Under the pieces are notes generated by a model, which searched no databases, was not told where the DNA came from, and worked only from the letters and a program-made list of their open reading frames with translations. The position numbers and the translations under genes were made by a program. DNA of 64,000 bases from Cupriavidus sp. 2SB (GTDB lineage Bacteria > Pseudomonadota > Gammaproteobacteria > Burkholderiales > Burkholderiaceae). The DNA is taken from positions 1-64,000 of the forward strand of contig NZ_SCMX01000007.1 in NCBI RefSeq assembly GCF_005503625.1, written 5' to 3'. Shown here in pieces: positions 2,740-57,092 of this stretch. Positions within the stretch are counted from its first letter, which is position 1. The number at the start of each line of letters is the position of its first letter.

Positions 2740-2760
2740 AAGGTCGGAGCCGACCTGCCT

Positions 2761-2956: not shown

Positions 2957-4872
<1,916 letters not shown>

Positions 4873-5682: not shown

Positions 5683-7364
<1,682 letters not shown>

Positions 7365-7384
7365 GACACCTCCGGCAGATTTGA

Positions 7385-7418
7385 ATTCGTAATCAAAAAT
7401 GATGACCTGATTACGAAT
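7385..7418 (-). promoter_or_regulatory. Candidate operator of the ptx operon (11-bp perfect inverted repeat)
   Basis: ATTCGTAATCA at 7385-7395 is followed after 12 bases by its exact reverse complement TGATTACGAAT at 7408-7418. It lies 21-54 bp upstream of the ptxA start. Position and symmetry fit a regulator site, most simply for PtxE. No biochemical evidence is available. Confidence 0.6.
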
Positions 7419-8140: not shown

Positions 8141-9010
8141 TCATCCCTGCGCCCCCATATTCAAGAGTCGTTTGCGCACCATCCACAGGTTGGACAGTGC
8201 AAACAGCGTCATCAGATTGGCCGTGTTCTTGGCCAGCCCCCGGTACTTGACCTTGACGTAGCCGAACTGCCGCTTGATGACACGAAACGGGTGCTCTACC
8301 TTGGCGCGGATGCTGGCTTTGGTATTTTCCAACTGCTCCAGGATGCTGCCCATGGGCGTGTTCTTGTCCATGGCCTTTCGCTTGCCAGGCATCATGGCGA
8401 TGTGCCATTTCACATCCGGGTGCTTGGCCTGAATTTCTGCGCGCTTTTCAACACCCCGGTAGCCCGAATCGGCAAAGACGTCGGTTTCTTGCCCATGCAA
8501 CAGCGCGTGTGCCTGGGTGATGTCGTGCGCGTTGGCCGCCGTGGTGGTCACGCTGTGCACCAACCCCAAATCGGCATCCGAGCCGATGTGCGCCTTCATG
8601 CCGTGGTGCCACTGGTTGCCCTTTTTGGTCTGGTGCATCTCAGGGTCGCGCGTGCCTGTGCCGTTCTTGGTCGAACTCGGCGCGGCAATCAACGTCGCAT
8701 CCACGACCGTGCCTTGCTTGAGCAGCAAACCCTTGGCGGTGAGGGTGGCGTTGACGGTTGCCAAGATTTGCAAGCTCAGATCGTGAGCTTCGAGCAGATG
8801 GCGAAACCGCAAGATGGTGCTTTCGTCGGGAAGATGGTCCTCCCCCATGTCCAGCCGGACAAACTCACGGAACATCGGCGTGTCGTACAGCGCCTCTTCC
8901 ATCGCCGGGTCAGACAAGTTGAACCACTGCTGCAAAAAGTGGATGCGCAGCATCGTTTCCACAGCAAACGGTGGACATACATGTAGCTCGAATGGTGGCA
9001 CCAGACGCAA
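8141..9010 (-). pseudogene. IS5-family transposase, 5'-truncated
   Basis: The coded sequence from FAVETMLRIHFLQQWF onward is a standard IS5-group DDE transposase with VVDATLIAAPSS, the HHGMKAHIG region, FADSGYRG and the E-region RAKVEHPFRVIK. The normal N-terminal portion is missing. The frame starts with an unrelated short string (MRLVPPFELHVC) joined near 8970, so roughly 50-60 residues appear lost. The element is therefore probably inactive. Neither terminal inverted repeat could be recognised. Confidence 0.8.
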
Positions 9011-9035
9011 AAAAGGCGCTCAAAGCGCCTTTTTT
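9009..9035. terminator. Strong bidirectional terminator-like hairpin
   Basis: AAAAAAGGCGCT and AGCGCCTTTTTT form perfect 12-bp arms around a 3-base loop. It sits at the broken 5' end of the transposase and insulates the island segments from each other. Confidence 0.7.
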
Positions 9036-9041
9036 GTTGTC

Positions 9042-9063
9042 CGCGATAAGTAGCGTTATCGCG
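9042..9063. repeat. Perfect 8-bp inverted repeat with 6-bp spacer
   Basis: CGCGATAA-GTAGCG-TTATCGCG. Arms ending in ATAA and starting with TTAT around a 6-base centre resemble the layout of XerC/XerD sites, but the outer bases do not match the usual dif consensus well. Confidence 0.4.
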
Positions 9064-9294
9064 AGTTGAGCATTCACAAGTACTGGCGGGAATCCCGAAA
9101 AGGTGTCAAGCATGACTGTGTCGATGTCTGCTTTGCAGCGTGGCTTGGTTGGGACTGATAGAGGGCTTCCACCATCGCGTGCGCAGGCACACGTCCATCG
9201 GATCCATGGCCCCCGTCACAAAGGAAAGCAGCTGCTGGCGGCATGGATGGATGTCCGTGGAAACCTGGCAGGGTCCACCGTCTGTTCACTCAGG
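9064..9294. other. Intergenic, no gene seen
   Basis: No ribosome-binding site plus start combination or recognisable protein segment was found. It ends at the sigma-54 promoter of the urease-like operon and may contain enhancer sites for a sigma-54 activator. Confidence 0.4.
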
Positions 9295-9310
9295 TGGCAC
9301 AAATTGTGCT
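9295..9310 (+). promoter_or_regulatory. Sigma-54 promoter of the urease-like operon
   Basis: TGGCACAAATTGTGCT matches TGGCACG-N4-TTGCW with GG and GC exactly 12 bases apart. Relative to consensus, -24 is perfect through CAC and -12 differs at one T. Transcription would begin near 9320, giving a leader of about 130 nt before ureAB. The same motif with the same deviation occurs at 17967. Confidence 0.8.
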
Positions 9311-9352
9311 TAACAACAACGGGCGCCATTGAGTTGGAGCGTTCCATGCACC

Positions 9353-9431
9353 GCGGCAGGGCTGCCGCCCCATTTTGGCTACGTAGCCTTCGTTTCACTG
9401 CCTGACGGCGGAGCTAGGGCTTTTTGTTTTT
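9353..9431 (+). promoter_or_regulatory. ANTAR-type attenuator leader A
   Basis: Hairpin 1 is GCGGC/GCCGC at 9353-9368 with hexaloop AGGGCT, matching the ANTAR-site loop rule (A at position 1, G at 4). Hairpin 2 is GGC/GCC at 9377-9388 with loop TACGTA, where only G4 fits. Its 3' side overlaps the 5' arm of an intrinsic terminator (AGCCTT at 9385-9390 pairing with AGGGCT at 9416-9421, inner stem CTGCC/GGCGG, then TTTTGTTTTT). Stabilising hairpin 2 would prevent the terminator. The likely ligand is the AmiR-like protein encoded at 17357-18001. Confidence 0.75.
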
Positions 9432-9450
9432 GGACCACAGGTATTCTGCA

Positions 9451-10149
9451 ATGCGCCTTTTTCCTCGTGAGATTGATCGCCTTCTGCTGCACCAGGCGGC
9501 AAGCCTAGCGCAGGCTCGCCGCAAGAAGGGCTTGCAGCTGACCGAACCGGAGGCGCGGGCGCTGATCGCGGACGCCATCTGCGAGGGGGCGCGCCAGGGA
9601 GGGACTGTGGCGGATATGGTGTCCATGGCCAGCGCGCTTCTGAACGAGGACGACCTGATGGCAGGCGTGGCCGAGCGCATCGACGTGGTCATGGTCGAAG
9701 CCTTCTTCCCTGACGGGCAGAAGCTGGTATGCGTTCGCGATCCAATAGGGCCAGCCAAGGCAAAAGGGCCGTCGAATGCGGCACCGCAAGTCGAGCCACG
9801 CTGGCGCCTGGTCGAAGAACCGTTAGTGGTCAATCAGAACCGGCCTACGCTGCGCCTTCGAGTGGAAAGCACCAGTGACCGGCCGATACAGATCGGCTCG
9901 CACTATCACTTTTTCGAAGTCAATCCGGCACTTCGGTTCGATCGCGCCGCCGCGTACGGCATGCGCTTGGATATACCAGCGGCAACCACACTACGTTTCG
10001 AACCCGGCGATGCGCGAGATGTTGATCTTGTGGCCATCGGAGGTGCGCGTCGCGTGTTCGGCTTGGCGGGCCTGATCAATGGAGCACTCGACGACCCGGC
10101 GGTGCGCTGCGCAGCAATGACCCGGCTTGTCGCGTTTATCCAGGACTAG
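9451..10149 (+). CDS. ureAB: Urease gamma-beta fusion subunit (UreA-UreB)
   Basis: A 232-residue fusion. Residues about 1-100 are UreA ([15 protein letters not shown], then [12 protein letters not shown]). Residues about 125-232 are UreB ([30 protein letters not shown]). The ATG at 9451 is preferred over an in-frame TTG at 9424 because it begins the standard UreA N-terminus and because 9424 lies in the terminator T-run. Fused gamma-beta subunits are known from Helicobacter and some other bacteria. The stop is 2 bp before ureC. Confidence 0.92.
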
Positions 10150-10151
10150 GC

Positions 10152-11867
10152 ATGGCATTCACCATTGAACGTTCACGCTACGTGCAACTGTACGGCCCCA
10201 GCTCAGGCGACAGCGTCCGCCTCGGCGACACAGGGCTATGGGCCCGGGTCGAGCGTGACTACTGTCATGGCGGCGACGAACTTGTTTTTGGTGCCGGCAA
10301 GACGATCCGTGCAGGGACTGGCTGCGACGGCGCGATGACAGCGGCGGACGGCGTTCTCGACCTTGTCGTCACCAACGCACTGATCATCGACGCGGTGGCC
10401 GGCATCATCAAGGCGGACATCGGCATAAAGCAAGGGCGGATTGTTGGTATTGGCAAGGCCGGGGATCCCAACATCATGGATGGCGTGAGCCCTCAGCTTA
10501 TCGTCGGGGTCAATACCGACATCAGAGCCGCCGAAGGATTGATCGTCACGACCGGAGGCATCGATTGCCATGTCCACTTCATCGACCCGGGTCAGGTGGA
10601 TGAGGCCCTGTGCGCAGGCATCACGACCTTGATGGGCGGGGGACTCGGTCCCACCACGGTTCCGATCGCCTCAACCGGCACAACCAACCTAGGTCTGATG
10701 CTACAGGCGGCTGAGGCGTTCCCAGTGAACTTCGGCTTCATCGGCAAGGCTGCGTCACACACCGTGGCGCCCCTGATTGAACAACTCGCCTCTGGGGCCG
10801 CCGGCCTCAAAGTCCATGAAGACTGGGGCGCCAGTTCGGCCGTCATCGACGCCGCACTCCAGGCTGCTGACATTGGCGGTGGCCAGATCCAACTGCACAC
10901 CGACACCCTAAACGAATCGGGCTTCATCGAGCATACTTTGCGCGCGATCGGTGACCGATGCATCCATGCATACCACGTCGAGGGCGCGGGCGGCGGGCAT
11001 GCGCCCGACATCATCCGCATTTGCGGCAAGGCGAATGTGTTGCCGTCTTCGACCAATCCAACCAATCCGTTCACGGTCAACACCTTTGACGAGCACTTCG
11101 ACATGGCGATGACAAGCCATCATCTGAATCCTCGATTACCGGAGGACGTTGCCTTCGCGGAGAGTCGTATCCGCCGCGAGACGATCGGCGCCGAAGATGT
11201 ATTGCACGACCTAGGAGCAATCAGCGCTATCGGCTCTGACAGCCAGGGTATGGGGCGCATTGGCGAGACGATCGCAAGGACCTGGCAGCTGGCTGAGCAC
11301 ATGCGTGATCTGCGCGGCAGTCTTTCTGAGGACCTCGGCACGGGCGCCGATAACCACCGAATCCTGAGGTACATCGCCAAGTACACGATCAACCCTGCAA
11401 AGATGTTCGGCATCGATCACGAGGTCGGATCCATTGCTCCGGGAAAGTTGGCCGACCTGGTTTTCTGGCGTCCCGACAGTTTCGGCATCAAACCGGAGTT
11501 GGTCATGAAATCGGGTTTCCCTGTATGGGCACCGCTTGGGGAAGCCAATGCATCTCTGATGACCTGCGAGCCGTTGCGCTACCGGCCCATGTGGGGCTGC
11601 TTCGGTCGTGCGCCACAGGCGCTGGGCGTGCGCTTTGTCGCGCCGCCTTCCATCGCTGCAGACATCGGCCGCAGGCTCGACCTTAAATCCGCTCTGGTGG
11701 CCGTAACGGACACACGGGGACTGACCAAGCGCAATATGCTCTACAACGATCTGTTGGCCGATATCAGGGTTGATCCAGAAACCTTCCGCGTCTACATCGA
11801 TGGCCAAACGCTGATCAGCGCTCCAGCCACGCGAGTGACGCTGGGGGCCTCCTACATGCTCAAGTGA
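10152..11867 (+). CDS. ureC: Urease alpha subunit-like nickel hydrolase with Cys-to-Ser flap
   Basis: A 571-residue catalytic subunit. By alignment to Klebsiella UreC from memory, the nickel ligands are present: H140 and H142 (GGIDCHVHF), K220 for carbamylation and H222 (GLKVHEDWG), H249, H275 and D363 (GSDSQGMGR). H323 and R339 (active-site H320 and R336 equivalents) are also kept. The flap, normally MVCHHLDP, reads MTSHHLNP, so the conserved Cys is Ser322. The stretch after GGGLGP is also divergent ([14 protein letters not shown]). All maturation genes follow. It is surely a nickel urease-fold hydrolase; urea as the main substrate is uncertain. Confidence 0.9.
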
Positions 11868-11882
11868 ACAAAGGGATCTGAA

Positions 11883-12497
11883 ATGTCTGTGGTGCGATTA
11901 GGCATCGGCGGTCCGGTTGGCAGCGGCAAGACGCGCATCGTGGAGCGCCTGCTCCCCATTTTTGCCGAGGAGGGTATTTCCACGGCAGTTATTACCAATG
12001 ACTTGGTTACGCGAGAGGATGCGGAGCGTGTACGTCGATCCGGCTTGATCGATCCCGATAGGGTGTTGGGCGTCGAGAGTGGGGCCTGTCCGCACACCGC
12101 CATTCGCGAAGACCCGTCCGTCAACATCGAGGCCGTTGAATGGCTCGAACGGCGCTTTCAGCCAGACGTCATCCTCATCGAGAGTGGCGGCGACAATCTG
12201 GCCGCTACTTTTTCAAGTGAACTGGTGGATTGGTGGATGTTTGTCATCGACGTGGCTGGCGGGGACGACATACCGCGCAAGCGTGGACTAGGCGTTTTGC
12301 GAGCCGACCTGTTGGTGGTCAACAAGATCGACCTAGCTCCCCACGTTGACGCGGACCTCGACCGCATCCGCGCCGATGTGGCAATAGCTCGACCCAATCG
12401 TCCCTCGCTGTTCACGGATCTGCGTCGCGGTGAGGGTGTACGCGCAGTCTTCGAGGAGCTAAGGCGCTCGGCACTGTTCGGGCATGGCCGTACATGA
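11883..12497 (+). CDS. ureG: Urease accessory GTPase UreG
   Basis: A 204-residue SIMIBI GTPase that supplies energy for nickel insertion. P-loop GGPVGSGKT lies at residues 9-17. The UreG-specific [15 protein letters not shown] (Cys-Pro-His nickel site) and guanine-specificity motif VNKIDL are visible. Length matches the family. It follows ureC by 15 bp and overlaps ureD by 4 bp. Confidence 0.95.
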
Positions 12498-13309
12498 CCG
12501 ACGGCCTGCTTCAACTTCGTCTGGCCTGCGACCGCCAAGGCCGTACCCGATTGGTGGAGCGTAAGCAGCGCTACCCGTTGACCACCACCGCTGTGCTGCC
12601 GCTCGACGCCGGTCCGGGCGCTCTCATATATGTACAAAACGCGGCTGGATCGGTATTTGGCGGCGACCGTTTGCACCTCGACGTGGCGTTGGGTGACGGC
12701 GCTGAGCTTTGTCTGTCGACACCGTCCGCCACGCGACTGCAAGGGGATACCCTGTCGGTGCAGACCTCGCACATTTCAGTGGGGAAAGGGGCCTTTCTCG
12801 AATCCATTCCCGACATGCTGATACCGCATGCGCGCTCGATGCATAGACAGCACACCCTGGTCGAGCTTGCATCCGGTGGGCGGGCGATCATCGCCGACGC
12901 GCTGGCTCCAGGCCGTGTCGCGAGCGGCGAGCGTCACGCATATCAGTTGCTCGCGCTGCGCTTGCGGGTCTGCGTCGAAGGGTCTTCGATCCTCCATGAC
13001 GCCGCAACCTTTTGCCCTGATGAGGCGGATCCGTGGCTGGAGGGAGCACTTGGCAGGCAAGGCTATGTCGGGACGCTGTTCGCATTGACGCAGGAAGGTT
13101 GTGCGGCAGAACTCGCGGACAGGGTCCACGCCGGTATCGCAAGTGTGCAAGGAGTTTACGGTGGGGCCTCCCCATTGGCTTCTGGATATGGCGTCGTTGC
13201 CCGCTTGCTGGCCGACGACTCACCGCTATTGCGCCACGCAATGCAGCTCACGTGGGATCTCATGCGCCGCTGCCTGCTTGGCCGTCCAGCACCTCAACTG
13301 CGAAAGTAA
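12494..13309 (+). CDS. ureD: Urease accessory protein UreD (UreH)
   Basis: A 271-residue scaffold protein that binds the apo-enzyme and recruits UreF and UreG. Family features are [32 protein letters not shown] and [14 protein letters not shown]. The ATG overlaps the ureG stop (ATGA). Placing ureD between ureG and ureE differs from the common ureDABCEFG order. Confidence 0.9.
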
Positions 13310-13314
13310 CTCCA

Positions 13315-13884
13315 ATGATTGAACAACACTTTGACCCACCTATTGCAGCGCGAATCCTCGGCCGGGTGGGTGCGCCAGAGTTCGCTGGACGCTGGATCGA
13401 GCGAGTACCGGTACCCGCCGCGGATGCGGCACGCCGGCGCGTGCTGCTTCGCGGAGAGCACGGTACGGCCATCGCTGTGGATCTCCCCAAGCCAGCTTGG
13501 TTGTTTGATGGCGCGGTACTCCACGACAATGGCTGTCGCTTGCTTGTTGTCACCCGCCCACCGGAACCGGTCATGGTCATTGGGTTGGCACAACTCACAC
13601 CCGCCGATACGCTCCGCATCGGCCATGCGCTGGGCAATCGGCACAGCCCTTGCGAACTGTCTGAGGGCGAGATCATCGTCCCGGTCACTGACACGCCGGA
13701 ACTTGCCTCCCGACCCGTGTTGGCGCTGGGATTGGCCGGACTTCAGCTGCGTTTCGACCATCTGCCGTTTGCTGCCCAATGTCCACCGGCTTGCGGCGCA
13801 GCCGCACACGATCACCCGCCCCAACGATTGGATCACGGTTCGCATTTGCATCCGCATTCGACACATGCACGCCACGATGGATGA
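13315..13884 (+). CDS. ureE: Urease nickel metallochaperone UreE
   Basis: A 189-residue protein. The N-terminal peptide-binding half is followed by the metal-binding half (RIGHALGNRHSPCELSEGEI) and a His-rich tail (HDHPPQRLDHGSHLHPHS) typical of nickel storage. The ATG at 13315 lies 5 bp after the ureD stop. The 3' end overlaps ureF. Confidence 0.9.
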   Translation: MIEQHFDPPIAARILGRVGAPEFAGRWIERVPVPAADAARRRVLLRGEHGTAIAVDLPKPAWLFDGAVLHDNGCRLLVVTRPPEPVMVIGLAQLTPADTLRIGHALGNRHSPCELSEGEIIVPVTDTPELASRPVLALGLAGLQLRFDHLPFAAQCPPACGAAAHDHPPQRLDHGSHLHPHSTHARHDG

Positions 13885-14578
13885 GACTGCTGCAATGCGC
13901 ATGCTGACACTGATGCAGCTGTCGGACTCGGCACTACCCATTGGCCGTCATGCACATGCGATGGGCCTGGAAAGGCTCATTCGAGACGGACGCGTGCAGA
14001 CCCGCGAAACGCTGCGTGAGATGGTGGTCTCTGCGTTGATCCACGGGGCGGCTCGCTCCGATGGCACTGCGACCGCTCTCGCGCATGGCGCGGTGATGGC
14101 GCAGGACCTCGCCGCACTGCGCGGGGTAGACGCCAGGCTCGACCTGCTAAAGCAGACGCCCTCAGCGCAAGCCGCGTCCCGCCGCTGCGGCAGCCGCCTC
14201 GCGGCCATGGCTACCACCTTTGGAGCGCAGGCCCTGTTGACCGAATACGCCGCAGAGATCGCCGCCCAAAAGTCGCCTGGCCATCTCTCGGTAGTTTCCG
14301 GCGCTATTGCGGCCACTGCAGGTATCGATCGTGAACACGCAGTGCTGTGCGAAATGCGCGGAGTGGCATCCATGATTCTGTCGGCCGCGGTTCGTCTGGA
14401 CCTCCTCGCGTCTGCAGCCTGCCAGGGCATGCTGGCAGAACTGTCCCAGCACATCGTCAAAGCTACGCGAATCGCCTTGCGCACAGGTCTTGAGGAGATG
14501 TCGTGCAGCGCGGCCGCTGGGATTGAGGTTGCCGCCATGCGACATGCCCGCGACGACGCTCGGCTTTTTGCCAGCTGA
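13877..14578 (+). CDS. ureF: Urease accessory protein UreF
   Basis: A 233-residue helical protein that gates nickel and GTPase activity in the UreD-UreF-UreG complex. Signature segments are MQLSDSALPIGRHAHAMGLE at the N-terminus and a C-terminal helix with LEEMSCSAAAGIEVAAMRH. The ATG at 13877 overlaps ureE by 8 bp; an ATG at 13865 is also in frame. It completes the maturation set. Confidence 0.88.
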   Translation: MDETAAMRMLTLMQLSDSALPIGRHAHAMGLERLIRDGRVQTRETLREMVVSALIHGAARSDGTATALAHGAVMAQDLAALRGVDARLDLLKQTPSAQAASRRCGSRLAAMATTFGAQALLTEYAAEIAAQKSPGHLSVVSGAIAATAGIDREHAVLCEMRGVASMILSAAVRLDLLASAACQGMLAELSQHIVKATRIALRTGLEEMSCSAAAGIEVAAMRHARDDARLFAS

Positions 14579-14610
14579 TTCCTACAAACCCCCTTGAAGG
14601 CATTTCATAG

Positions 14611-16155
14611 ATGCAAAATGACCGGATGTTGCGCGTGGCTCTGGACTGGGCCGTGGACGAAATCGACCCACCCCGTTCTTTCGGCGGCTGGAACACTGGC
14701 CGCGTCGTGCAGCAAACGCACGAAAGCCTCGTCGAGGATGATTTCCATATGCCCCCCGGTTCAACCGGTGCGCCGACCCAAGTGGTGCCCAGGCTGGCCG
14801 AATCGGTGCAGCAATCGCCCGATGCCCGCCACTTCATCTTCAAACTTCGCAGAGACGTACGCTTTCACGACGGCGCCGAGCTGGATGCGGATGCCGTCGT
14901 CCTCAATTACCAGAGGATGTGCGATCCGGCCTCTCCCTATTACTCACATGTCGCTGCTGACTTCAATCGCGAAGGGGTAGGGCTCATCGACCACGTTCAC
15001 GCGCGGGACTCGATGACAGTCGAGTTTCGCTTGAGCGAACCATTCCCGGAATTTCTGCGTTACATGACGCAGGAAGACGCGCCCGGCTCGCAGGCACTTA
15101 TCAGCCCTAAGGCGATCCGAGAATTCGGACCGGATGGCTGCGCAGATCGCGCCCCAGGCACCGGGGCTTTTCGGTTCCATCGTCGATTTGAGACCGCGGG
15201 CGGATCGGCCGTGGAACTTCGACGCAACGCGGCGTATTGGGATGGCCCGCCGGCGATCGATGCCATCCAGTTCCTTCCAATTCCCGATCTGCAGGATCGC
15301 GTGCGGGCCCTGATGGAAGGCCAGGTGGACGTAGCCTACAGCCTCGAGGGCACCGATGTGGAGAACCTGCTGGCGCGCGGTTTTAACGTGCCTGCGTTTT
15401 CCCCTCCGTACCTTTGGTACTTGGTGTTCAACCAACGTGACCCATGGGTATCCGATGGCCGGGTACGCCAGGCCATTGCACATGCCATTGATCGGAAGTC
15501 GCTTTGTGACGCGCTCTTTCCAGGAACTGTACGCCCTGCAACCTCGGCGATTCCACCGGGTGCGCCAGCGCATGATGCGCATGCATTGGAACGCTATCCC
15601 TACGACCCTGATCTGGCGCGCGCCTTACTGGCAGCGGCTGGTGTTCCACAGGGCTTGGTCCTGCATGTCATTGGCGCACGCGCGGGCTCGGCGCAACTCG
15701 ATCCTGGAGCGATCTTCCAACGAATCGCACACGACCTCGCTGCGGTCGGGGTCCGACTGGAAGTCAGCTTGCAAGATGAATGGGTTGCCTATTGCAATCA
15801 ATGGCGGCAAGGCGCACCGATGGGCGTCGCAATGAGCGAGATGAGCTGGGCCATGTCGTGCGACGTGTGGTTATCTCAGGTCCTGCACAGCCGCAACATG
15901 TCCCCACGCGGGTTCAATGCCGGGTACCACCACGATCCTGTACTCGACACGATGCTGGATCAGGCGCGGAGTACCCTGTCATTTGAAGAGCGAAAATCGC
16001 TTTACCGCGCCGCTGATGCGCGCGTCATGGAGACCCTCCCCATCCTGCCCCTGGTCACCTCGGCAAGAGGGATGATCGCATGCTCGCCCCGTGTCACTGG
16101 CCTGACTACAGTGAACCAGTGCTGGCAAGACTTTCGGCGCGTACGGTTCACTTAA
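14611..16155 (+). CDS. Family-5 solute-binding-type protein without signal peptide
   Basis: A 514-residue SBP_bac_5 (peptide/nickel-binding) fold protein. Family segments include FKLRRDVRFHDGAELDADAVV, ELRRNAAYWDGPPAIDAI and FNQRDPWVSDGRVRQAIAHA. The N-terminus (MQNDRMLRVALDW) has no hydrophobic export signal, and GAAGG precedes this ATG, so a cytoplasmic product is likely. No cognate permease is adjacent. It lies between ureF and the AmiC-like gene and may sense or sequester nickel or the inducer. AmiC itself is a cytoplasmic binding protein, so a second such sensor is plausible. Confidence 0.75.
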   Translation: MQNDRMLRVALDWAVDEIDPPRSFGGWNTGRVVQQTHESLVEDDFHMPPGSTGAPTQVVPRLAESVQQSPDARHFIFKLRRDVRFHDGAELDADAVVLNYQRMCDPASPYYSHVAADFNREGVGLIDHVHARDSMTVEFRLSEPFPEFLRYMTQEDAPGSQALISPKAIREFGPDGCADRAPGTGAFRFHRRFETAGGSAVELRRNAAYWDGPPAIDAIQFLPIPDLQDRVRALMEGQVDVAYSLEGTDVENLLARGFNVPAFSPPYLWYLVFNQRDPWVSDGRVRQAIAHAIDRKSLCDALFPGTVRPATSAIPPGAPAHDAHALERYPYDPDLARALLAAAGVPQGLVLHVIGARAGSAQLDPGAIFQRIAHDLAAVGVRLEVSLQDEWVAYCNQWRQGAPMGVAMSEMSWAMSCDVWLSQVLHSRNMSPRGFNAGYHHDPVLDTMLDQARSTLSFEERKSLYRAADARVMETLPILPLVTSARGMIACSPRVTGLTTVNQCWQDFRRVRFT

Positions 16156-17331
16156 ATGACCGAAAGCATGCCGACCATGTCCCCTATCACGCACAACCCG
16201 GAGCCCTGGATCCTCGGCGTGCTCTATTCCCTCGATGGGCCGACTGCGATTTCCTCGCGCCAGCATGTGCAGGGAATCACGCTTGCTCTCCAAGAGATCA
16301 ACGCCCGCGGCGGTGTGCGTGGGCGCCTGCTGAATACCAAGGCCTATGACCCGGGATGCGATCTTGCCCTCTATCGTCAGTGCGTGGACCGACTGTTCAC
16401 CGAAGATGGCGTGGACGTGGTAATCGGATGCTGCACCTCACTGAGCCGCAAGGCTGTGCTGCCCACTTTCGAGCGGCGCAATGGTCTGCTCCTGTACCCG
16501 GACCTATATGAGGGATTCGAATATTCTCCCAACGTGATCTACGCCGGCGCTACCACCAACCAAAACACCCTTCCACTTGCTCGCTATCTGCTGCGAAGCG
16601 GGGCCCGCCGCTTCGTGCTTGTCGGCAGCGACTACATCTACCCGCGCGAGTCAAATCGCGTAATGCGCGATCTGGTCGAGCGCCAAGGGGGGGCCGTGCT
16701 CGACGAACTGTACCTCCCTCTACAGCCCGATGCGGCGCGCATGGCGCAGTTAGTGGAGCGTGTGGTTGAATTGAAGCCCGACATATTATTCAGTGCGCTG
16801 GTGGGCCAGTCGATCTGCGATCTTCTGCAGGCCTGCGCCAATGCAGGCATTGATGGCTCCATCCCGATTGTCAGCCACAACATCACCGAGGCGGAGATGC
16901 TCGCCTTGCCGAAGCCCCCAGTCGCCGGCCATATAACGTCGGCACCCTTCTTCGCAAGCCTCGACACTGCACCAAGTCAGCGCTTTGTGAACGGCTTCAG
17001 GCGCGCATTTGGTGCGCAGGCGCCGGTTTCCCAGATTGCCGCCGCAGCCTACAGCGTCGTCCATCTTTTTGCACGTGCTCTCGAGAAGTCTGGAGAGATG
17101 GATACCCAGTCCATCATCGACGCGATGCGAGGTGTGCCATTTGAGGCACCGCAGGGTCAGATGGTGGTCGACTACGACAACAATCACACCTGGATGACGC
17201 CGCGCATTGGCCGCTGGAATGGCCGCGACCAGTTCGACATACTCTGGCAGGCGAGCGAAGCCGCCCAACCCGACCCGTGGTTGGTGAGCTATGGTGGTGC
17301 CGAGACGCTTGCCGAAGCTCCGGGTCCGTGA
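16156..17331 (+). CDS. amiC: AmiC-like cytoplasmic amide/urea sensor
   Basis: A 391-residue type-I periplasmic-binding-fold protein without a signal peptide. It resembles AmiC of Pseudomonas: ILGVLYSLDGPTAISS, VVIGCCTSLSRKAVLP, LLYPDLYEGFEYSPNV and YAGATTNQN are characteristic of the AmiC/UrtA group. In the known system AmiC holds AmiR inactive and releases it when an amide binds. The start follows the preceding stop directly (TAAATG). The AmiR-like gene starts 25 bp downstream, so the pair is conserved. The ligand here is unknown. Confidence 0.88.
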   Translation: MTESMPTMSPITHNPEPWILGVLYSLDGPTAISSRQHVQGITLALQEINARGGVRGRLLNTKAYDPGCDLALYRQCVDRLFTEDGVDVVIGCCTSLSRKAVLPTFERRNGLLLYPDLYEGFEYSPNVIYAGATTNQNTLPLARYLLRSGARRFVLVGSDYIYPRESNRVMRDLVERQGGAVLDELYLPLQPDAARMAQLVERVVELKPDILFSALVGQSICDLLQACANAGIDGSIPIVSHNITEAEMLALPKPPVAGHITSAPFFASLDTAPSQRFVNGFRRAFGAQAPVSQIAAAAYSVVHLFARALEKSGEMDTQSIIDAMRGVPFEAPQGQMVVDYDNNHTWMTPRIGRWNGRDQFDILWQASEAAQPDPWLVSYGGAETLAEAPGP

Positions 17332-17356
17332 ACTCTGCTTCTTTAAATACATCGAC

Positions 17357-18001
17357 ATGAGCAATGATCCGATGCGCGAACTGCGCGGCTTGAATGTGAC
17401 GGTTTTGCATCCGCTGGACCGTGAGATCGAAGAATTGTTGCGCCATCTCAAGCGCATCGGGTGCCAGATCGACGCCTGCTGGCCGCCTCCGGCCAGTATT
17501 TCGGTATCGACCAGCGTTGTGTTCTTTGCAATCACCGCCGAAGGACCGCGTGTGACACTGCCACGATTCGTCAACCCCGCCCCGTGCTTGGTGGCCGTCG
17601 TCGACTACGAAAGCCCCAGTGCAGTCAAGAGCCTTCTCGAATCGGAAGCGCACTGCTTCATTACCAAACCCATCCGCCCCTCGGGCATTGTTTCCAGTCT
17701 GCTGCTGGCACGTTCGCTACACGGCTACCAATCCCGCCTACTCGCTAAGGTCAACAAGCTCGAAGAAACGCTGCGCAGTCGGCGCGAGATAGAGCGCGCG
17801 ACGCAAATTTTGATGGAGATGAAGCGCCTCGACGAAGATGCCGCATACCAGTTGATTCGAAGCCAGGCCACCTCGCAGCGCCTAGGGATGGGCGCTGTGG
17901 CACGCTCCATCATTACCGCACACAGGGTATTTGACAGCACGTCCACGGCAACCTCAGGCCCGAAGTTGGCACGGAAGGTGCTTGGACTAACACGGCGCTA
18001 G
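17357..18001 (+). CDS. amiR: AmiR-like ANTAR transcription antiterminator
   Basis: A 214-residue RNA-binding regulator. Residues about 1-120 form a pseudo-receiver without a usual phospho-acceptor Asp. A coiled coil (YQSRLLAKVNKLEETLRSRR) leads into an ANTAR domain at about 125-190 (IERATQILMEMKRLDEDAAY, QRLGMGAVARSII). ANTAR proteins bind tandem hexaloop hairpins and prevent leader termination. Two such leaders lie in this window, one upstream of its own operon and one directly after this gene. The ATG at 17357 is preferred to an in-frame GTG/TTG start inside the amiC-like gene. Confidence 0.88.
   Translation: MSNDPMRELRGLNVTVLHPLDREIEELLRHLKRIGCQIDACWPPPASISVSTSVVFFAITAEGPRVTLPRFVNPAPCLVAVVDYESPSAVKSLLESEAHCFITKPIRPSGIVSSLLLARSLHGYQSRLLAKVNKLEETLRSRREIERATQILMEMKRLDEDAAYQLIRSQATSQRLGMGAVARSIITAHRVFDSTSTATSGPKLARKVLGLTRR
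17967..17982 (+). promoter_or_regulatory. Sigma-54 promoter of the transporter operon
   Basis: TGGCACGGAAGGTGCT keeps GG and GC 12 bases apart and matches the consensus except one T in -12. It lies inside the 3' end of the amiR-like gene. Transcription would begin near 17993, just ahead of leader B. Confidence 0.8.
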
Positions 18002-18024
18002 CTTAGAGAGCGCTTTCATGCACC

Positions 18025-18106
18025 GCGGCAGGGCTGCCGCACTTCAGTTGGCTAGGAAGCCTTCGTTCAATTGCCATGCGGCAGGACGAAGGCTTTTTTG
18101 TTTTTG
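18025..18106 (+). promoter_or_regulatory. ANTAR-type attenuator leader B
   Basis: The first hairpin at 18025-18040 is identical to that of leader A (GCGGC-AGGGCT-GCCGC), and its 5' flank is shared (CATGCACC). Hairpin 2 is GGC/GCC at 18050-18061 with loop TAGGAA. It overlaps the terminator 5' arm AGCCTTCGT (18058-18066), which pairs perfectly with ACGAAGGCT (18086-18094) around an inner TGCC/GGCA stem. TTTTTGTTTTT follows. This is a stronger terminator than in leader A. Confidence 0.8.
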
Positions 18107-18132
18107 ACTTTCAAATCTCGATCGTGAGCCCT

Positions 18133-19323
18133 ATGCGCAAATCAACTCAATTGTTTACCGCGACGAGCATCCTCGCCGCATTTGCATTCGCGTCCGTGTC
18201 CCTGCTCGCCAGTCCCATCGCTGCGGCACAGCAAATGCCGCCTGTCGTGATTGGTACGGCGGTGGGCTTGAGCGGCGCAAACAGCGTCGTCGCTCCTTCT
18301 GTCGTACAGGCCACACAGCTCGCAATCGACGAAATCAACGCGGCAGGGGGAATTCTCGGACGCAAGGTGGTGCTTGAGGTTGCAGACGATGGCAGCGGTG
18401 CTGCAGGTGCCCAGAAAGCCTACGACTCGTTGCTGTTTCAAAAGAAGGTTGACGCTGTCATCTCCATGGAGACGAGTGCCGCACGCAACGCGGCACTCCC
18501 CATCGTCACCCGCGCCAAGAAGCCCTTTATCTACACCTCTTTCTACGAAGGCCGCTCCTGCAATAAGCACCTGTTCATCAACGCCTGGGTGCCGGAGCAG
18601 CAGGTTGCTTCAGTGGTCGACTACTTCAGCACAAAACTCAATACCAAGAGCTACTTCCTGATCGGAAGTGACTACGCCTTTGGCCGCGGCATGCTGGAGT
18701 TCACGCGCAAATACATTGCGTCGAAAGGACACAAGGTGGTTGGTGAAGAGTACTTGCCCATAGACGGCTCGGACTGGACAGCCATCATCAGTAAGCTCAA
18801 GGCCTCAGGCGCCGATGCCCTGATTAGCTCTACCTCAGGCGGGGCGCCCAACGTGACGCTCACCAAGCAGCTTCGGGCTGCCGGCGTCAGTCTTCCCTTC
18901 GGCAATCTGGCGGTGGATGAAGGCACCGCCAAGAGCATGGGCAGCGATGCCAAGGGTGTCTATACCGCGGGCTCCTACTACACCAGCATCGGCACGCCGC
19001 GCAACAAGAAATTTCTGTCCGCGATGAGCAAGCGCTTCGGACCGGATATGAAGACACCTAACGATCTCTCCACGCCTCAGTACGAAGCTGTTTGGGCGTA
19101 CAAACTCGCGGTTGAAAAGGCAGGCACTCTCGAGACCGACAAGGTCCTCAAGGCGCTCGGGGAAGTATCCGTCAACGGCCCACGCGGCGAGATCAAGATG
19201 GACCAGCAACACCACGCAGCGCTGACCATGTACATAGGCCAGGTGCAGGCTGACGGCAGCGTCAAGATCCTAGAGACCTTCCAGAACGTCGCTCCCGGTG
19301 CGCAGTGCCCGCAGCTGAAATAG
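18133..19323 (+). CDS. urtA: UrtA/AmiC-family periplasmic binding protein
   Basis: A 396-residue Peripla_BP_6 protein with a signal peptide (MRKSTQLFTATSILAAFAFA, cleavage near AAA-QQ). The core reads VVIGTAVGLSGANS, AIDEINAAGGILGRKV and FLIGSDYAFGRG. The ATG at 18133 is chosen because the signal peptide begins there; an upstream in-frame start lies within the leader terminator. It should feed substrate to the permeases that follow. Gene symbols in this operon are by analogy to the urea transporter; the true ligand may be another amide or urea derivative. Confidence 0.85.
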   Translation: MRKSTQLFTATSILAAFAFASVSLLASPIAAAQQMPPVVIGTAVGLSGANSVVAPSVVQATQLAIDEINAAGGILGRKVVLEVADDGSGAAGAQKAYDSLLFQKKVDAVISMETSAARNAALPIVTRAKKPFIYTSFYEGRSCNKHLFINAWVPEQQVASVVDYFSTKLNTKSYFLIGSDYAFGRGMLEFTRKYIASKGHKVVGEEYLPIDGSDWTAIISKLKASGADALISSTSGGAPNVTLTKQLRAAGVSLPFGNLAVDEGTAKSMGSDAKGVYTAGSYYTSIGTPRNKKFLSAMSKRFGPDMKTPNDLSTPQYEAVWAYKLAVEKAGTLETDKVLKALGEVSVNGPRGEIKMDQQHHAALTMYIGQVQADGSVKILETFQNVAPGAQCPQLK

Positions 19324-19353
19324 CGCCAACTAGACGAACCAGGAACTGATGCT

Positions 19354-20187
19354 ATGACCTTGGTGCTCGACATTCTGACCACCGCCGCCATCCTGTACGG
19401 CGTTTCGGCCGGCCTTCTGATCGTCTTCGGCGTCATGAAGATCATCAATTTCGCGCACGGTGCCTTCCTCACCGTGGGGGGATACGCCGCACTTCTGGTG
19501 ACCAATTTAGGATGGAACCCCTGGTGGTCCTTGCCGGTAGCATTCGCCATCGGGGGCTTCCTTGGAGCGTTGGTCGAGCGCCTGGTGATGAAGCCGCTTT
19601 ACCAACGCCCACTCGACGCCATCCTGGCGACCTGGGGATTGGCGATTGTTATGGGTCAATGCATCACCCTGGTCTTCGATCGTGGCGTGCAGTTCGTACA
19701 AAGTCCTCTCAGCGGCGCTTTTGACTTCGCCGGCGCTTCCTACTCGAGCTATAGGCTCTTGATGATTCCACTCTCGCTGGCAGTCGTCGGCGTGCTTGGC
19801 TGGATGATGAACGGATCTCGCCTGGGGCTCGTGACACGCGCAGTGATCATGAACGAAGACCTGGCCCGGGGACTTGGCATTAATACCAGCCTGGTGCGTC
19901 TGGCGACGTTCTCACTCGGTGCCGGACTCGCCGGTCTGGCTGGTTCCCTGATCACCCCGCTTTCCAGCGTCGACCCCAACATGGGCGTGCCTTGGCTTGT
20001 CAACGCCTTCATGATCGTGATGGTCTCTGGCGTTTCTCTGGTCAGTCTCGGCATCGCCTGTCTGGTACTCGGTGGCGCCCAAGTCTTGGTCAGCACCTGG
20101 GCCAATCCTATCTTGGGCGGGTTGACCATCGTAGTGCTTGCAGCGCTGATCCTTCGCGTGCGTCCGGAAGGCTTTGCACGAGGTTGA
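19354..20187 (+). CDS. urtB: Branched-chain/urea-type ABC permease 1 (UrtB/LivH-like)
   Basis: A 277-residue inner-membrane permease with many hydrophobic helices. Family signatures are GVMKIINFAHGAFLTVGGY, the loop TRAVIMNEDLARGLGINTS and GAGLAGLAGSLITPLSSVDP. It partners with the permease half of the next gene. It starts 30 bp after urtA-like. Confidence 0.85.
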   Translation: MTLVLDILTTAAILYGVSAGLLIVFGVMKIINFAHGAFLTVGGYAALLVTNLGWNPWWSLPVAFAIGGFLGALVERLVMKPLYQRPLDAILATWGLAIVMGQCITLVFDRGVQFVQSPLSGAFDFAGASYSSYRLLMIPLSLAVVGVLGWMMNGSRLGLVTRAVIMNEDLARGLGINTSLVRLATFSLGAGLAGLAGSLITPLSSVDPNMGVPWLVNAFMIVMVSGVSLVSLGIACLVLGGAQVLVSTWANPILGGLTIVVLAALILRVRPEGFARG

Positions 20188-20194
20188 AACACAC

Positions 20195-22024
20195 ATGAAC
20201 ATTAGCACCCAACCCGTAGTCGCAAACCCCGCAGTGACCAGGCGTCGATTGGCCTTGCCCGTCGGTCTGGCAGCCGCAGGCATTGTTTTGCTTTTCATAG
20301 CGCCCGACGTATTGCCGACCTATCTGGTCAATACGCTCATCCGCGCCTTCCTCTATGCAGCGGTCGCCATCACAGTCGACATCCTTTGGGGCTACACAGG
20401 CATCCTGACTTTCGGCCAGTCAGCGTTCTTCGGCTTCGGCGCCTATGCGGCAGCGTTGACTTTTACGCACGTCGGCTTTGGACCAGGAACGGCCCTGATG
20501 GCCTTCGGCATCGCCATCGCCGGCGCCATGCTGGTCGCTCTAGTCGTGGGCTGGTTCGCTTTCCATCCCGGTGCCTCGGCGCTTTACGGCTCTGTCATCA
20601 CCCTGGTACTGCCCATCGTTGTGAGTCAGTTGCTGTATTCCGGCGGCAGCTTCACCGGCTCAAGCAGCGGACTCGCTGGGTTCGAGAGCTTTGACCTGTC
20701 CCTCGAGGCCTGGTTCCGTATCACCGCTGGCTTCCTGCTCGTGATCACCGCGGGCGCATGGGTCTTTGTTCGCAGCGACGCAGGCCGCATTCTCGAGGCC
20801 ATTCGAGATAATGAACAGCGCTGCGCGTATCTTGGGATCAATGTCTCGCGCGTAAAGATTCTGCTCATGGTCGCCTGTGGGGCGGTCGCCTCCTGCGCCG
20901 GCTTTCTCTTCGCCTGCGTGCAAATGGTGGTGGCACCGGAATACGCTGGCTTCGCGTTCGGCACCGAACTGCTGATGTGGGTCGCTCTCGGGGGGCGCGG
21001 CACTCTGCTCGGACCGGTGATTGGTACCGTGCTGCTCGACAGCAGCACCTCCTACTTGAGTGGCAGCCTTCCGTTCCTGTGGAAACTACTGAGTGGTGTG
21101 GCTTTCGTCATCGTCATCGTTGCTATGCCACAGGGGCTGCTGCCAGCGCTGCTGAACGCTGTGCGTCGATGGTGTCGGCTCGGCACCCGGGGGAGCGCTT
21201 CGCGCGCAAAGGAGGTGGCACTGCGCGTTGCCGAACCACGGCCTCTCGCTGGCTTGGCCTCGGTCGGCCGGTTTGCGCTCAGCGTCGAAGACGTCCACAA
21301 GCGCTTCGGGAGTCTTCAGGTACTGCGCGGCATCGACTTCAAGGTGCGGCCCAACGAGCTGCTGAGCTTGATCGGCCCGAACGGTGCGGGCAAAACCACC
21401 TTGATGAAATGCATCGCCGATGGCGCTGAGCGGACATCGGGAACCATCAGGCTCAATGACCATGACATCCTTCGGTCCCCGCCAGCGACTTGTGTCGCAC
21501 TGGGAGCAGGTCGCAAGTTCCAGAATGCCAACGTGTTCGAGTCACTGACGGTCGCGCAGGCCATGCGGGTGTCCCGCACGCGGCTCGAGCCGCCGTCACT
21601 CTTGCGGCGTGCCTCGGTTCTCGCATTGCCGGATGCTGCGCTCGAGGTGCTGCGAGCCACTGGGCTGGAAAGGCAATTGGATGTCGCTTCGCGCGATCTC
21701 TCGCACGGTATGAAGCAAGCCCTCGAGTTGGCGATGGTGCTGGCGCTGGAACCTAACGTGCTACTCCTTGACGAACCCACGGCCGGGCTTACCAAGGCAG
21801 AACGTACGCAGATCGGAGCCATTCTGCTTGACCTGACTCGGAACTACGCTCTGTGCGTACTGCTGGTCGAGCACGACTTGGACTTCGTGCACGAGATCAG
21901 CAGCCGGATCATCGTCTTGCATCAAGGCCAGATCGTCCTCGACGGCAGCGTCGAAGAGGTTGTCAACTCCGAACTCGTTCGCGAGGTCTATGCCGGTGCT
22001 GGCGCACCTGGAGAACATGCATGA
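20195..22024 (+). CDS. urtCD: Fused permease 2 and ATPase (UrtC-UrtD/LivM-LivG-like)
   Basis: A 609-residue fusion. Residues about 1-330 form a LivM-type permease (DILWGYTGILTFGQSAFFG, AIRDNEQRCAYLGINVSRVK, FGTELLMWVALGGRGTLLGP). Residues about 360-609 form a LivG-type ATPase with Walker A GPNGAGKTT (near 394), a variant signature LSHGMKQ and Walker B VLLLDEPTAGL. The ATG at 20195 is chosen over a TTG inside urtB. Permease-ATPase fusions of this pair occur in some Liv systems. It overlaps urtE by 4 bp. Confidence 0.88.
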   Translation: MNISTQPVVANPAVTRRRLALPVGLAAAGIVLLFIAPDVLPTYLVNTLIRAFLYAAVAITVDILWGYTGILTFGQSAFFGFGAYAAALTFTHVGFGPGTALMAFGIAIAGAMLVALVVGWFAFHPGASALYGSVITLVLPIVVSQLLYSGGSFTGSSSGLAGFESFDLSLEAWFRITAGFLLVITAGAWVFVRSDAGRILEAIRDNEQRCAYLGINVSRVKILLMVACGAVASCAGFLFACVQMVVAPEYAGFAFGTELLMWVALGGRGTLLGPVIGTVLLDSSTSYLSGSLPFLWKLLSGVAFVIVIVAMPQGLLPALLNAVRRWCRLGTRGSASRAKEVALRVAEPRPLAGLASVGRFALSVEDVHKRFGSLQVLRGIDFKVRPNELLSLIGPNGAGKTTLMKCIADGAERTSGTIRLNDHDILRSPPATCVALGAGRKFQNANVFESLTVAQAMRVSRTRLEPPSLLRRASVLALPDAALEVLRATGLERQLDVASRDLSHGMKQALELAMVLALEPNVLLLDEPTAGLTKAERTQIGAILLDLTRNYALCVLLVEHDLDFVHEISSRIIVLHQGQIVLDGSVEEVVNSELVREVYAGAGAPGEHA

Positions 22025-22725
22025 GTGCCGCACTTGAGGTCAGTGAGCTCACCGCCGGCTACGGCGGTGCAATGGTTCTGCACGGCGTGAGCCTATCGGT
22101 TGCACCGGGGGAGATCGTTGCGCTGTTGGGAAAGAACGGCATGGGCAAGAGCACGCTCTTGAAAACCATCATGGGCCTGGTTGCGGCGCAACGTGGCACG
22201 GTGTCCATCTTTGGTGAAAATGTGAGTAAGCTGCGCGCGCACCAGGTGGCTCGGCGTGCACTGGCCTACGCCCCCCAGGAGAAGCCTCTGTTCCACGACC
22301 TCAGCGTCGAGCAGAACCTGCAGCTGGGGCTGCGCGAATCGAAATCGTTCAATAGGCAATTTGAGCGCGTCGCCGACGTCTTCCCGGTTCTGGCCACGCG
22401 CCTGAAGCAGCGTGCAGGAACGCTTTCGGGGGGCGAACAGAAGATGCTGCTGATTGCGCGCGCGCTCCTTTCCGCTCCGGCGCTCATCCTGATCGACGAG
22501 ATCACCGAAGGCCTGCAACCCTCGGTGATCGAACGCTTGGCGGCAATTCTCAGGAGCGAGCGCGAGCGCTCGGGAACCGCCATGTTGCTGGTAGAGCAGA
22601 ACGTCAGCTTCGCGCTATCGGTGGCCGACCGCTATCTGCTGCTCAAGCGCGGCGAGATCGTCAATGCAGCCAGGGTGGATTCCAATCAAGCAGCGCAGCA
22701 TATCGCGGCCGATTTGGGGCTGTGA
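22021..22725 (+). CDS. urtE: ABC transporter ATPase 2 (UrtE/LivF-like)
   Basis: A 234-residue ATPase with Walker A GKNGMGKST, signature LSGGEQKM and Walker B ALILIDEITEGL. The Asp-Glu-Ile-Thr-Glu-Gly reading is typical of UrtE/LivF. The ATG overlaps the previous stop (ATGA). It forms the heterodimeric motor with the C-terminal half of the fusion protein. Confidence 0.88.
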   Translation: MSAALEVSELTAGYGGAMVLHGVSLSVAPGEIVALLGKNGMGKSTLLKTIMGLVAAQRGTVSIFGENVSKLRAHQVARRALAYAPQEKPLFHDLSVEQNLQLGLRESKSFNRQFERVADVFPVLATRLKQRAGTLSGGEQKMLLIARALLSAPALILIDEITEGLQPSVIERLAAILRSERERSGTAMLLVEQNVSFALSVADRYLLLKRGEIVNAARVDSNQAAQHIAADLGL

Positions 22726-22761
22726 CAGCGTAATTTGCAATTTCTTCCCATTTATACGCTC

Positions 22762-23628
22762 ATGACAGCCAACCAAACTCCGATCTCGCTGCGGATCGCC
22801 TGCGTTCAGATGGAACCTCGTGTAGGCCAGAAGGCGGACAACCTCAGGCGTAGCCTGGAGTACATCGAAGCGGCAGCGGCCGCGGGCGCACGTCTTGTGG
22901 TGTTGCCCGAGCTGTGCAACACAGGCTACGTTTTCAATTCCCGAGAGGAGGCATTCGAGGCGGCGGAGCCGGTGCCCGGTGGTCCCAGCTGCGAGGCTTG
23001 GATACGCACTGCTGCAAAGCTTGGCCTTGTGATCGTCGCTGGCGTCTCTGAACGCGTTGGCGACCGGCTCTATAACTCCGCTGCGGTCATTGGTCCCGAC
23101 GGGTACTTGGGCACCTACCGAAAGAACCACCTTTGGGACGCCGAGCAGCTGTTCTTCGAGCCGGGCGACCTGGGCGTGCCGGTGTTCGAATTCGAAGGGG
23201 GGCGCTTTGCCTGCGCTATCTGCTACGACATGTGGTTTAGTGAGATCTACCGAATGGCCGCAGTCGGCGGCGCCGAACTCTTGTGTGTGCCAACAAACTG
23301 GGTTCCCATGCGACACCAGCCGTCCGACCTTCCTACCATGGCAAATCTTCTCGCGATGGGCGGCGCGCACACCAACGCGCTGTTTGTCGCCGCAGCGGAT
23401 CGCATCGGCATCGAACGCGGGCAGCCCTTCCTCGGCCGCAGCCTGATCGTGGGCCCCGACGGTTGGCCACTGGCCGGACCGGCATCACCCGACAGGGAAG
23501 AAATGCTGTTGGCGGAGATTGACTTCAACACTGCTCGCCAGCTGCGCGCCCTCAACGCTAACAATCACGTGCTGAACGACCGCCGTCCGCAGGTGTATGC
23601 ACAGGTTTTGCAACCTCCTCTTGCATGA
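22762..23628 (+). CDS. Nitrilase-superfamily amidohydrolase
   Basis: A 288-residue carbon-nitrogen hydrolase. The Glu-Lys-Cys triad is visible: E50 (LPELCNTGY), K121 (YRKNHLWDAEQLFF) and C154 (ICYDMWF). Length and the KNHLWD context fit the amidase/carbamoylase branches better than true nitrilases. It is the last gene of the importer operon, 36 bp after urtE, so it probably acts on the imported compound or a product of the urease-like enzyme. The specific substrate cannot be read from sequence. Confidence 0.85.
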   Translation: MTANQTPISLRIACVQMEPRVGQKADNLRRSLEYIEAAAAAGARLVVLPELCNTGYVFNSREEAFEAAEPVPGGPSCEAWIRTAAKLGLVIVAGVSERVGDRLYNSAAVIGPDGYLGTYRKNHLWDAEQLFFEPGDLGVPVFEFEGGRFACAICYDMWFSEIYRMAAVGGAELLCVPTNWVPMRHQPSDLPTMANLLAMGGAHTNALFVAAADRIGIERGQPFLGRSLIVGPDGWPLAGPASPDREEMLLAEIDFNTARQLRALNANNHVLNDRRPQVYAQVLQPPLA

Positions 23629-23729
23629 CCTGGCCGCTGAGCGCGTCGAGCCTCAATACCGCTTGCCTGCGCGAGCTCCTGAGGCGATCCGTGTCGATGA
23701 CACTGGATCAGTACGTCGAGCCAGTGTAT

Positions 23730-23996: not shown

Positions 23997-24005
23997 TTCA
24001 AAGGG

Positions 24006-57090: not shown

Positions 57091-57092
57091 CA

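Follow-up and report, generated by a model that had tools for sequence, protein, structure and literature searches.

Antitermination by ANTAR proteins is described for several leader RNAs, including those of amiE and nasF. The protein acts on two hairpins, P1 and P2, whose loops carry A1 and G4, and one ANTAR protein can serve several leaders (PMC3369936, PMC3369931, PMC8934654; literature statements in this report are taken from excerpts of the sources named). The locus reported here lies in a 64,000-nucleotide stretch of DNA from Cupriavidus sp. 2SB (contig NZ_SCMX01000007.1, positions 1 to 64,000; hereafter the window). It probably encodes a two-operon urea/amide regulon under AmiC-AmiR antitermination, in which AmiR released by ligand would open both leaders in trans.

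Three described systems resemble this locus. The Pseudomonas aeruginosa AmiC-AmiR/amiE system shares the AmiC sensor, a pseudo-receiver ANTAR protein AmiR, the overlap of P2 with the terminator and the location of amiR in the regulated operon (PMC3369936, PMC3369931). The window differs in having two leaders and two operons, sigma-54-type promoters, a P2 loop that begins with U and a plasmid location, and urease with a urea-type transporter replaces the aliphatic amidase. The Klebsiella oxytoca NasR/nasF system joins nitrogen regulation (Ntr) by NtrA, NtrB and NtrC to ANTAR antitermination in a two-input logic (PMC5424462). NasR, however, is a one-component NIT-ANTAR protein that responds to nitrate at one leader, whereas the window concerns urea or amides and no NtrC site was found within 300 nt upstream of either promoter. 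In Enterococcus faecalis one ANTAR protein, EutV, acts on several (four eut) leaders (PMC3369936, PMC3369931), but it has a phosphorylated receiver and a sensor kinase, EutW, responds to ethanolamine and lacks an AmiC-type sensor.

The 2012 survey of ANTAR RNAs names urea transporters among the genes with matches, and its excerpts mention neither a urea regulon under AmiC/AmiR nor a duplicated cassette or a plasmid setting (PMC3369931). Sigma-54 promoters are predicted for both urease genes and ANTAR proteins in a survey of the sigma-54 regulon (PMC12316311), and plasmid amiE-amiC-amiR operons are described (PMC13209695). Excerpts of two other papers mention urea transport and antiterminators or AmiC with no regulatory link drawn between them (PMC8014003, PMC10392092). 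Among the matches listed for literature outside subscription papers, none beyond the urea transporters of PMC3369931 concerned an AmiR/ANTAR-controlled urea or urease regulon. The parts are known, namely multi-leader ANTAR regulons (eut) and Ntr plus ANTAR gating (Klebsiella nas). What is new is the duplication of the cassette within a plasmid-borne urea regulon, where the weakest terminator precedes the regulator's own operon.

Operon 1, behind leader 1, consists of ureAB-C-G-D-E-F, a lone family-5 solute-binding protein gene, amiC and amiR. Operon 2, behind leader 2, consists of urtA-B-CD-E followed by a nitrilase-family hydrolase gene. The regulatory elements, in window coordinates, are as follows.

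9295..9310, + strand: sigma-54-type promoter 1, TGGCACAAATTGTGCT (GG-N10-GC); 6/8 consensus positions; shuffle p = 0.012 over the 170 nt before P1
9353..9368, + strand: leader 1 P1 hairpin, GCGGC-AGGGCT-GCCGC (loop A1, G4), by sequence scan
9377..9388, + strand: leader 1 P2 antiterminator hairpin, GGC-TACGTA-GCC (loop U1, G4), by sequence scan and alignment
9385..9425, + strand: intrinsic terminator 1, sharing the P2 3' strand; predicted -15.3 kcal/mol by folding, one C-U mismatch
16156..17331, + strand: AmiC-like ligand sensor; closest solved structure P. aeruginosa AmiC
17357..18001, + strand: AmiR-like antiterminator, pseudo-receiver plus ANTAR (AmiR_N and ANTAR domains)
17967..17982, + strand: sigma-54-type promoter 2, TGGCACGGAAGGTGCT (GG-N10-GC); 7/8 consensus positions, shuffle p = 0.002
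18025..18040, + strand: leader 2 P1 hairpin, same letters as leader 1 P1, by sequence scan
18050..18061, + strand: leader 2 P2 antiterminator hairpin, GGC-TAGGAA-GCC (loop U1, G4), by sequence scan and alignment
18058..18099, + strand: intrinsic terminator 2, sharing the P2 3' strand; predicted -22.2 kcal/mol by folding

In the proposed mechanism, transcription would start at the two GG-N10-GC promoters with sigma-54 holoenzyme and an activator. RNA polymerase would by default stop at each leader's terminator, since the terminator stem claims the 3' strand of P2. Binding of an amide- or urea-like ligand to AmiC would release AmiR. The ANTAR dimer of AmiR would then grip P1 and P2, P2 would exclude the terminator and both operons would be read, as published work on AmiC-AmiR, EutV and NasR suggests. 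With amiC and amiR behind leader 1 the circuit would feed itself, and leakage through terminator 1, which is weaker than all others of the set, could supply the AmiR that primes it. Leader 2 also lies in the path of operon-1 transcripts. A first-pass annotation had proposed that one AmiR-like protein acts on both leaders in trans. Such a mechanism is likely: P1, P2 and terminator are arranged as in the published logic, and seven of eight strong leader matches in other genomes are linked to AmiR (below). On sequence grounds it is very likely that the AmiR-like protein acts by antitermination.

The ANTAR protein that the first-pass annotation placed between the leaders is confirmed as an AmiR homologue encoded behind an AmiC homologue. 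It matches AmiR_N (9e-32) and ANTAR (3e-14), and its closest solved structure is AmiR of the AmiC-AmiR complex (1qo0, E = 3e-23). The likely start is 17357; the longest open reading frame begins at 17291. P. aeruginosa AmiC (1qnl, E = 7.3e-86) is the best solved-structure match for the AmiC-like protein, and urea-binding proteins rank behind it. As in AmiC, the protein has a Peripla_BP fold, no export signal is seen by eye and the gene adjoins amiR. Its best NCBIfam model is UrtA, which scores below that model's cut-off, and an alignment of binding-site residues gave no decision on the ligand. The only other ANTAR match in the strain's own genome (6.98 Mb) lies in a protein with a NIT nitrate-sensor domain, which makes the window's AmiR the likely partner of both leaders.

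Both leaders have the anatomy of ANTAR-controlled RNAs. The 5-bp P1 stems and 3-bp P2 stems carry hexanucleotide loops, and the 5' strand of each terminator overlaps the 3' strand of P2. P2 and the terminator exclude each other, because three paired columns are common to both. The first-pass annotation had reported the same P1 hairpin after both promoters and a second hairpin with its 3' strand in a terminator, and both features were found in both leaders. The P1 loop is AGGGCT, with A1 and G4, in each. The cassettes from promoter to U-run are 75% identical (106/141 aligned columns), with a score of 57.5 against a maximum of 24.0 in 500 random window segments. This high identity points to duplication of one whole promoter-leader cassette as the most likely origin of leaders 1 and 2. 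The cassette arrangement is a real, conserved regulatory feature.

Covariance models were used to search for the leaders. At the gathering score no Rfam family, ANTAR-type or other, matched either leader; the sole match, elsewhere, was that of the 5'-ureB sRNA model on the minus strand. A relatives-only model (R2) was built from 19 non-window leaders, and a 21-leader model (R1) adds both window leaders. In the own genome the relatives-only model finds leader 2 (18023-18099) at 50.4 bits (E = 1.8e-9) and leader 1 (9351-9425) at 48.0 bits (E = 7.7e-9), and the next match has E = 0.84. The covariance check suggested with the first-pass annotation was negative for Rfam and positive for the model of relatives. 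A candidate third leader at 39471-39534 (R1, 20.5 bits, E = 0.02 in the genome) had E = 1.15 with the relatives-only model and was rejected as ordinary terminator sequence.

The alignment supports both structures. P1 and P2 are paired in 97.0% of 168 cells, and 16 cells show a change on both sides (5.0 on average in shuffles); the terminator is paired in 95.8% of 189 cells, and 36 show such a change (11.7 on average). For P1+P2 and terminator alike, 0/500 shuffles reach the percentage paired, the both-side cell counts or the covariation score. The terminator also has 18 further pair types (shuffle mean 13.7; 4/500 as high). The base pairs of P2 do not vary across the alignment.

AmiR homologues (E <= 1e-20) occur in 22 of 399 genomes of the order, the own genome included, and 287 plasmid records have AmiR-related matches (E <= 1e-5). 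Regions from 12 plasmid records were compared, 7 chosen by AmiR match and 5 by DNA match, and a scan of genome contigs with the AmiR protein gave 5 loci. Class A is the betaproteobacterial arrangement amiC-amiR-leader-urt, with AmiR 63-66% identical to that of the window. In class B, from Burkholderiales, amiCR is divergent from urt-ure and AmiR is about 33-37% identical. Class C comprises alphaproteobacterial amiC-amiR-leader-nit/urt clusters (Rhizobium L066 and L067, Aminobacter L069, Ancylobacter L071) and Paraburkholderia L065, where the leader lies ahead of a nitrilase gene and amiR about 8 kb downstream. The letters of P1 are identical in the window, class A and Rhizobium, and the Rhizobium leader lies between amiR and nit.

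In the 21-leader alignment A1 and G4 of P1 are invariant (21/21), and G4 of P2 is kept in 19/21. This alignment omits L044 and L067 as near-duplicates and does not include L039; L034-L036 and L038 duplicate the places L004-L007. Position 1 of the P2 loop is U in 11 rows (window, classes A and C), A in 9/10 class-B rows and G in one. The related class-B leaders L040, L041 and L044 have the P2 loop AAAAGA, with no G at position 4.

Leader matches usually lie near AmiR genes. The order search gave 25 AmiR places outside the window, and 17 have a leader at E <= 1e-5 on the fetched stretch, most of which trained the model. The 21-leader model gave 20 non-window matches at E <= 0.001 in 398 genomes of the phylum. 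Eight reach E <= 1e-5, none of them in the model, and seven of these are flanked by an AmiR homologue on one side and a nit/urt operon on the other. Nine of the 12 weaker matches were inspected: one each precedes a gene for a nitrite reductase, an NMT1-type protein and a cytosine/purine/allantoin-type permease, and the remaining six, like G599 (below), have only unidentified reading frames or none. One more genome with a match at E <= 1e-5 was found among 289 genomes of the class of G440. A search of plasmids with the leader 1 cassette matched 39 records, 34 of them from Rhizobium. The leader is kept in relatives, usually beside AmiR genes and urea/amide operons, with exceptions.

Six of the 399 genomes of the order have two leader matches at E <= 1e-5, and except in the own genome (G000) the pairs are on different contigs. 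Four of the five others (G023, G029, G153 and G284) have an AmiR for each leader. In G114 the second leader (L139, G114:C239) precedes urtA, no AmiC or AmiR is found on 9 kb and the genome has one AmiR match (E <= 1e-20); G114 is possibly another genome with one AmiR and two leaders. The second urt copy in G254 (L117) has no leader.

Several results weigh against AmiC-AmiR antitermination at the two leaders. The hexaloops had been described beforehand as A1/G4, which is correct for P1; the P2 loops keep G4 but have U at position 1 in both leaders. A1 in both loops is reported to be important for EutV (PMC3369936), though in the EutV-RNA structure A1 makes no direct contact (PMC8934654). P1 and P2 loops can each close one extra pair between positions 1 and 6, and a U1-A6 pair would reduce the P2 loop to a tetraloop. 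P2 would work like an ANTAR hairpin without being a textbook match. Folding of the whole of leader 1 is no better than shuffles (z = -0.21), and with the leader cut ahead of the terminator the predicted fold is other than P1+P2, which suggests that P2 there would need protein. Among the covariation measures, P1+P2 has 3 pairs with both-side change (124/500 shuffles as high) and 4 further pair types (484/500), and the terminator has 5 pairs changed on both sides (218/500); the tool rates the pairs-changed and pair-type measures as less prone to relatedness.

The distribution of leaders adds to these points. Six of the 25 AmiR places (L042, L047, L049, L053, L057 and L059) have no recognised leader, and two (L048 and L052) have weak matches only. 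No leader was recognised in plasmid clusters L061 and L062 (Ancylobacter), L068 (Paracoccus) and L070 (Variovorax). Near one strong phylum match, G599 (C3:209809-209897, 32.8 bits), no AmiR, urt or ure neighbours were detected in 20 kb. Three untrained places found by the relatives-only model in the order search (L139-L141) precede urtA with no AmiR on the fetched 9-16 kb, one of them at a contig end, and genome G193 (L140, G193:C97) has no AmiR match at E <= 1e-20. Conservation in related clusters, which the first-pass annotation had made a test of its proposal, holds for the P1 loop and the AmiR linkage of most strong matches and fails at leaderless AmiR loci and AmiR-less leaders. In L061, L062, L068 and L070 AmiR-type genes lie beside urt/ure or amidase genes.

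The leaders of some relatives, which have no AmiR gene nearby, would fit hairpins that are ordinary terminators or elements of RNA processing or stability, independent of AmiR, and leader 2 lies directly 3' of amiR, where a terminator is expected. This explanation is very improbable. The loop identities of P1 and P2 are kept across Alpha- and Betaproteobacteria, mostly with AmiR linkage, and leader 1, which has no identified gene ahead of it on its strand, lies immediately 5' of ureAB.

The two leaders differ in predicted terminator strength. Terminator 1 is the weakest among the leaders folded: the Comamonas copy and the others range from -19.2 to -31.9 kcal/mol, and the relatives from -20.8 to -31.9 kcal/mol (L046 row set aside; L100-L106 left out). 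Folded alone, terminator 1 has z = -1.33 and terminator 2 z = -4.71, and the whole of leader 2 folds better than shuffles (z = -3.97). The weakness of terminator 1, its C-U mismatch and the poor fold of its whole leader would suit a decayed leader 1 whose terminator barely stops polymerase, with the urease operon set by its promoter only and leader 2 alone at work. We consider this unlikely, since leader 1 retains intact P1 and P2 hairpins. In the Comamonas plasmid, terminator 1 has two substitutions, on both partners of the mismatched pair, and is more stable (-19.2 kcal/mol), which suggests selection on the stem. Antitermination at both leaders remains the preferred reading.

The initiation gate was analyzed with the general sigma-54 and NtrC consensus sequences. 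The first-pass annotation had written the promoters as TGGCAC-N7-GTGCT. Sites are present at 9295 and 17967, but the spacer is N5, which gives the correct GG-N10-GC of a -24/-12 promoter. Both start exactly 63 nt before the first P1 loop base, and promoter 2 lies in the 3'-terminal part of the amiR gene. No other + strand site in the window reaches 6/8 consensus positions; the - strand has two that do. The background density of such sites in the fetched related loci, with those of the leaders counted, is 0.062 per kb per strand (123 sites in 1.98 million bases, both strands summed). Sigma-70 matches upstream of the two leaders are poor, the best scores having shuffle p = 0.68 and 0.30. The P. 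aeruginosa amiE promoter is not known to be of the sigma-54 type.

Relatives differ in their promoters. A sigma-54-like site with at least 6/8 positions lies in the 170 nt before P1 in 11/11 class-B leaders scored. A twelfth class-B locus, L039, has no site with at least 5/8, and three further loci score 6, 5 and 1. Sites with at least 6/8 are thus found in 12/15 loci of this distant Burkholderiales group of urea-operon leaders, in which several genomes are related. The five class-A nearest relatives instead carry TTGACA-N17 sigma-70-like promoters, 5/5 scoring 9.5 of 12.5 (shuffle p = 0.00-0.02), and TTGACA-like sites are present also in some class-B leaders. Sigma-54 sites in the window and class B and TTGACA-N17 promoters in class A suggest that the initiation gate varies among lineages while the leader persists.

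The consensus matches support a sigma-54 assignment for initiation at both operons, and a "nitrogen AND inducer" gate is plausible, its nitrogen arm being drawn from sigma-54. Two negative results count against that arm. The best NtrC-like palindromes within 300 nt upstream of the two promoters have 6 and 5 mismatches and do not exceed chance (p = 0.97 and 0.45), and class-B upstream regions have only weak ones (3-4 mismatches, p = 0.007-0.14 each). Sigma-54 sites with at least 5/8 positions are absent from 17/17 leaders of the nearest relatives and the amiR-leader-nit/urt clusters (5 class A, L065-L067, L069, L071 and L100-L106). Nitrogen limitation, proposed earlier as an input, is not supported here, and neither is NtrC control. 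Antitermination could be real with a different gate, in which the promoters are constitutive, of the sigma-70 type or dependent on a different sigma-54 activator, with the GG-N10-GC sites being incidental or carried along in the cassette. The lack of an NtrC site and the class-A promoters give this version an appreciable but lesser chance. The fit of both window sites to the -24/-12 consensus at equal spacing, the poor sigma-70 scores and the class-B sigma-54 sites oppose it.

By its sequence matches, the window belongs to a Cupriavidus-type plasmid. Positions 113-39005 are 99.95% and 39000-58439 are 99.9% identical to plasmid p352-2 of Cupriavidus sp. EM10 (genome announcement PMC8444968), which PLSDB types as conjugative. 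A Comamonas antarctica plasmid, also typed conjugative, is 99.4% identical over 9044-23996, and an Aquabacterium metagenome bin is 99.985% identical over 7291-27012. A C. metallidurans Ni-2 plasmid typed as non-mobilizable is 100% identical over 113-10726, which includes leader 1 only. The near identity (99.4-100%) of the urea cluster at 7291-27012 across Cupriavidus and Comamonas plasmids and the Aquabacterium bin indicates recent inter-genus spread. An IS5-family transposase gene (8141-9010, - strand) lies immediately 5' of promoter 1, and colinearity of the Comamonas plasmid copy with the window begins only at 9044.

A broader proposal is that the promoter-plus-ANTAR-leader cassette is a portable module, duplicated on an inter-genus plasmid in such a way that a single AmiR links the two operons; the terminator would be leaky before the AmiR operon, priming the switch, and tight before the transporter. 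The leader family would be joined to sigma-54 or sigma-70 promoters by lineage under a constant inducer gate. We regard this as tentative and on balance doubtful; if true, the initiation gate has been swapped between lineages while the inducer gate stayed constant. The locus would extend AmiC-AmiR antitermination from amidase to an apparent family of such urea/amide regulons among Alpha- and Betaproteobacteria, in this case on plasmids of sewage, soil and Antarctic isolates. It offers a small natural switch for two operons, perhaps double-gated, in which strong and weak terminators and sigma-54 and sigma-70 versions are directly comparable. Its P2 loop U1 probes the strictness of the ANTAR recognition rule.

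The structural genes of the two operons are as follows.

9451..14578, + strand: urease genes (ureAB fusion, ureC, ureG, ureD, ureE, ureF), by Pfam and NCBIfam
14611..16155, + strand: lone family-5 solute-binding protein, no signal peptide seen by eye
18133..23628, + strand: urea/amide ABC transporter urtA-B-CD-E plus carbon-nitrogen hydrolase (nitrilase family), by domain matches

The Rfam 5'-ureB sRNA match lies at 10312-10598 (- strand), antisense to the start of ureC, and scores 43.6 bits against a gathering score of 40. It may mirror conserved ureC coding sequence and not an RNA. The solute-binding protein gene at 14611-16155 lies between ureF and amiC with no permease genes beside it, and its product could be a cytoplasmic nickel-binding urease helper or a second sensor. 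Next to amiC in plasmid cluster L061 of Ancylobacter lies the gene of an annotated ABC substrate-binding protein (22370-23809) whose N-terminus is similar to that of the 14611-16155 protein.

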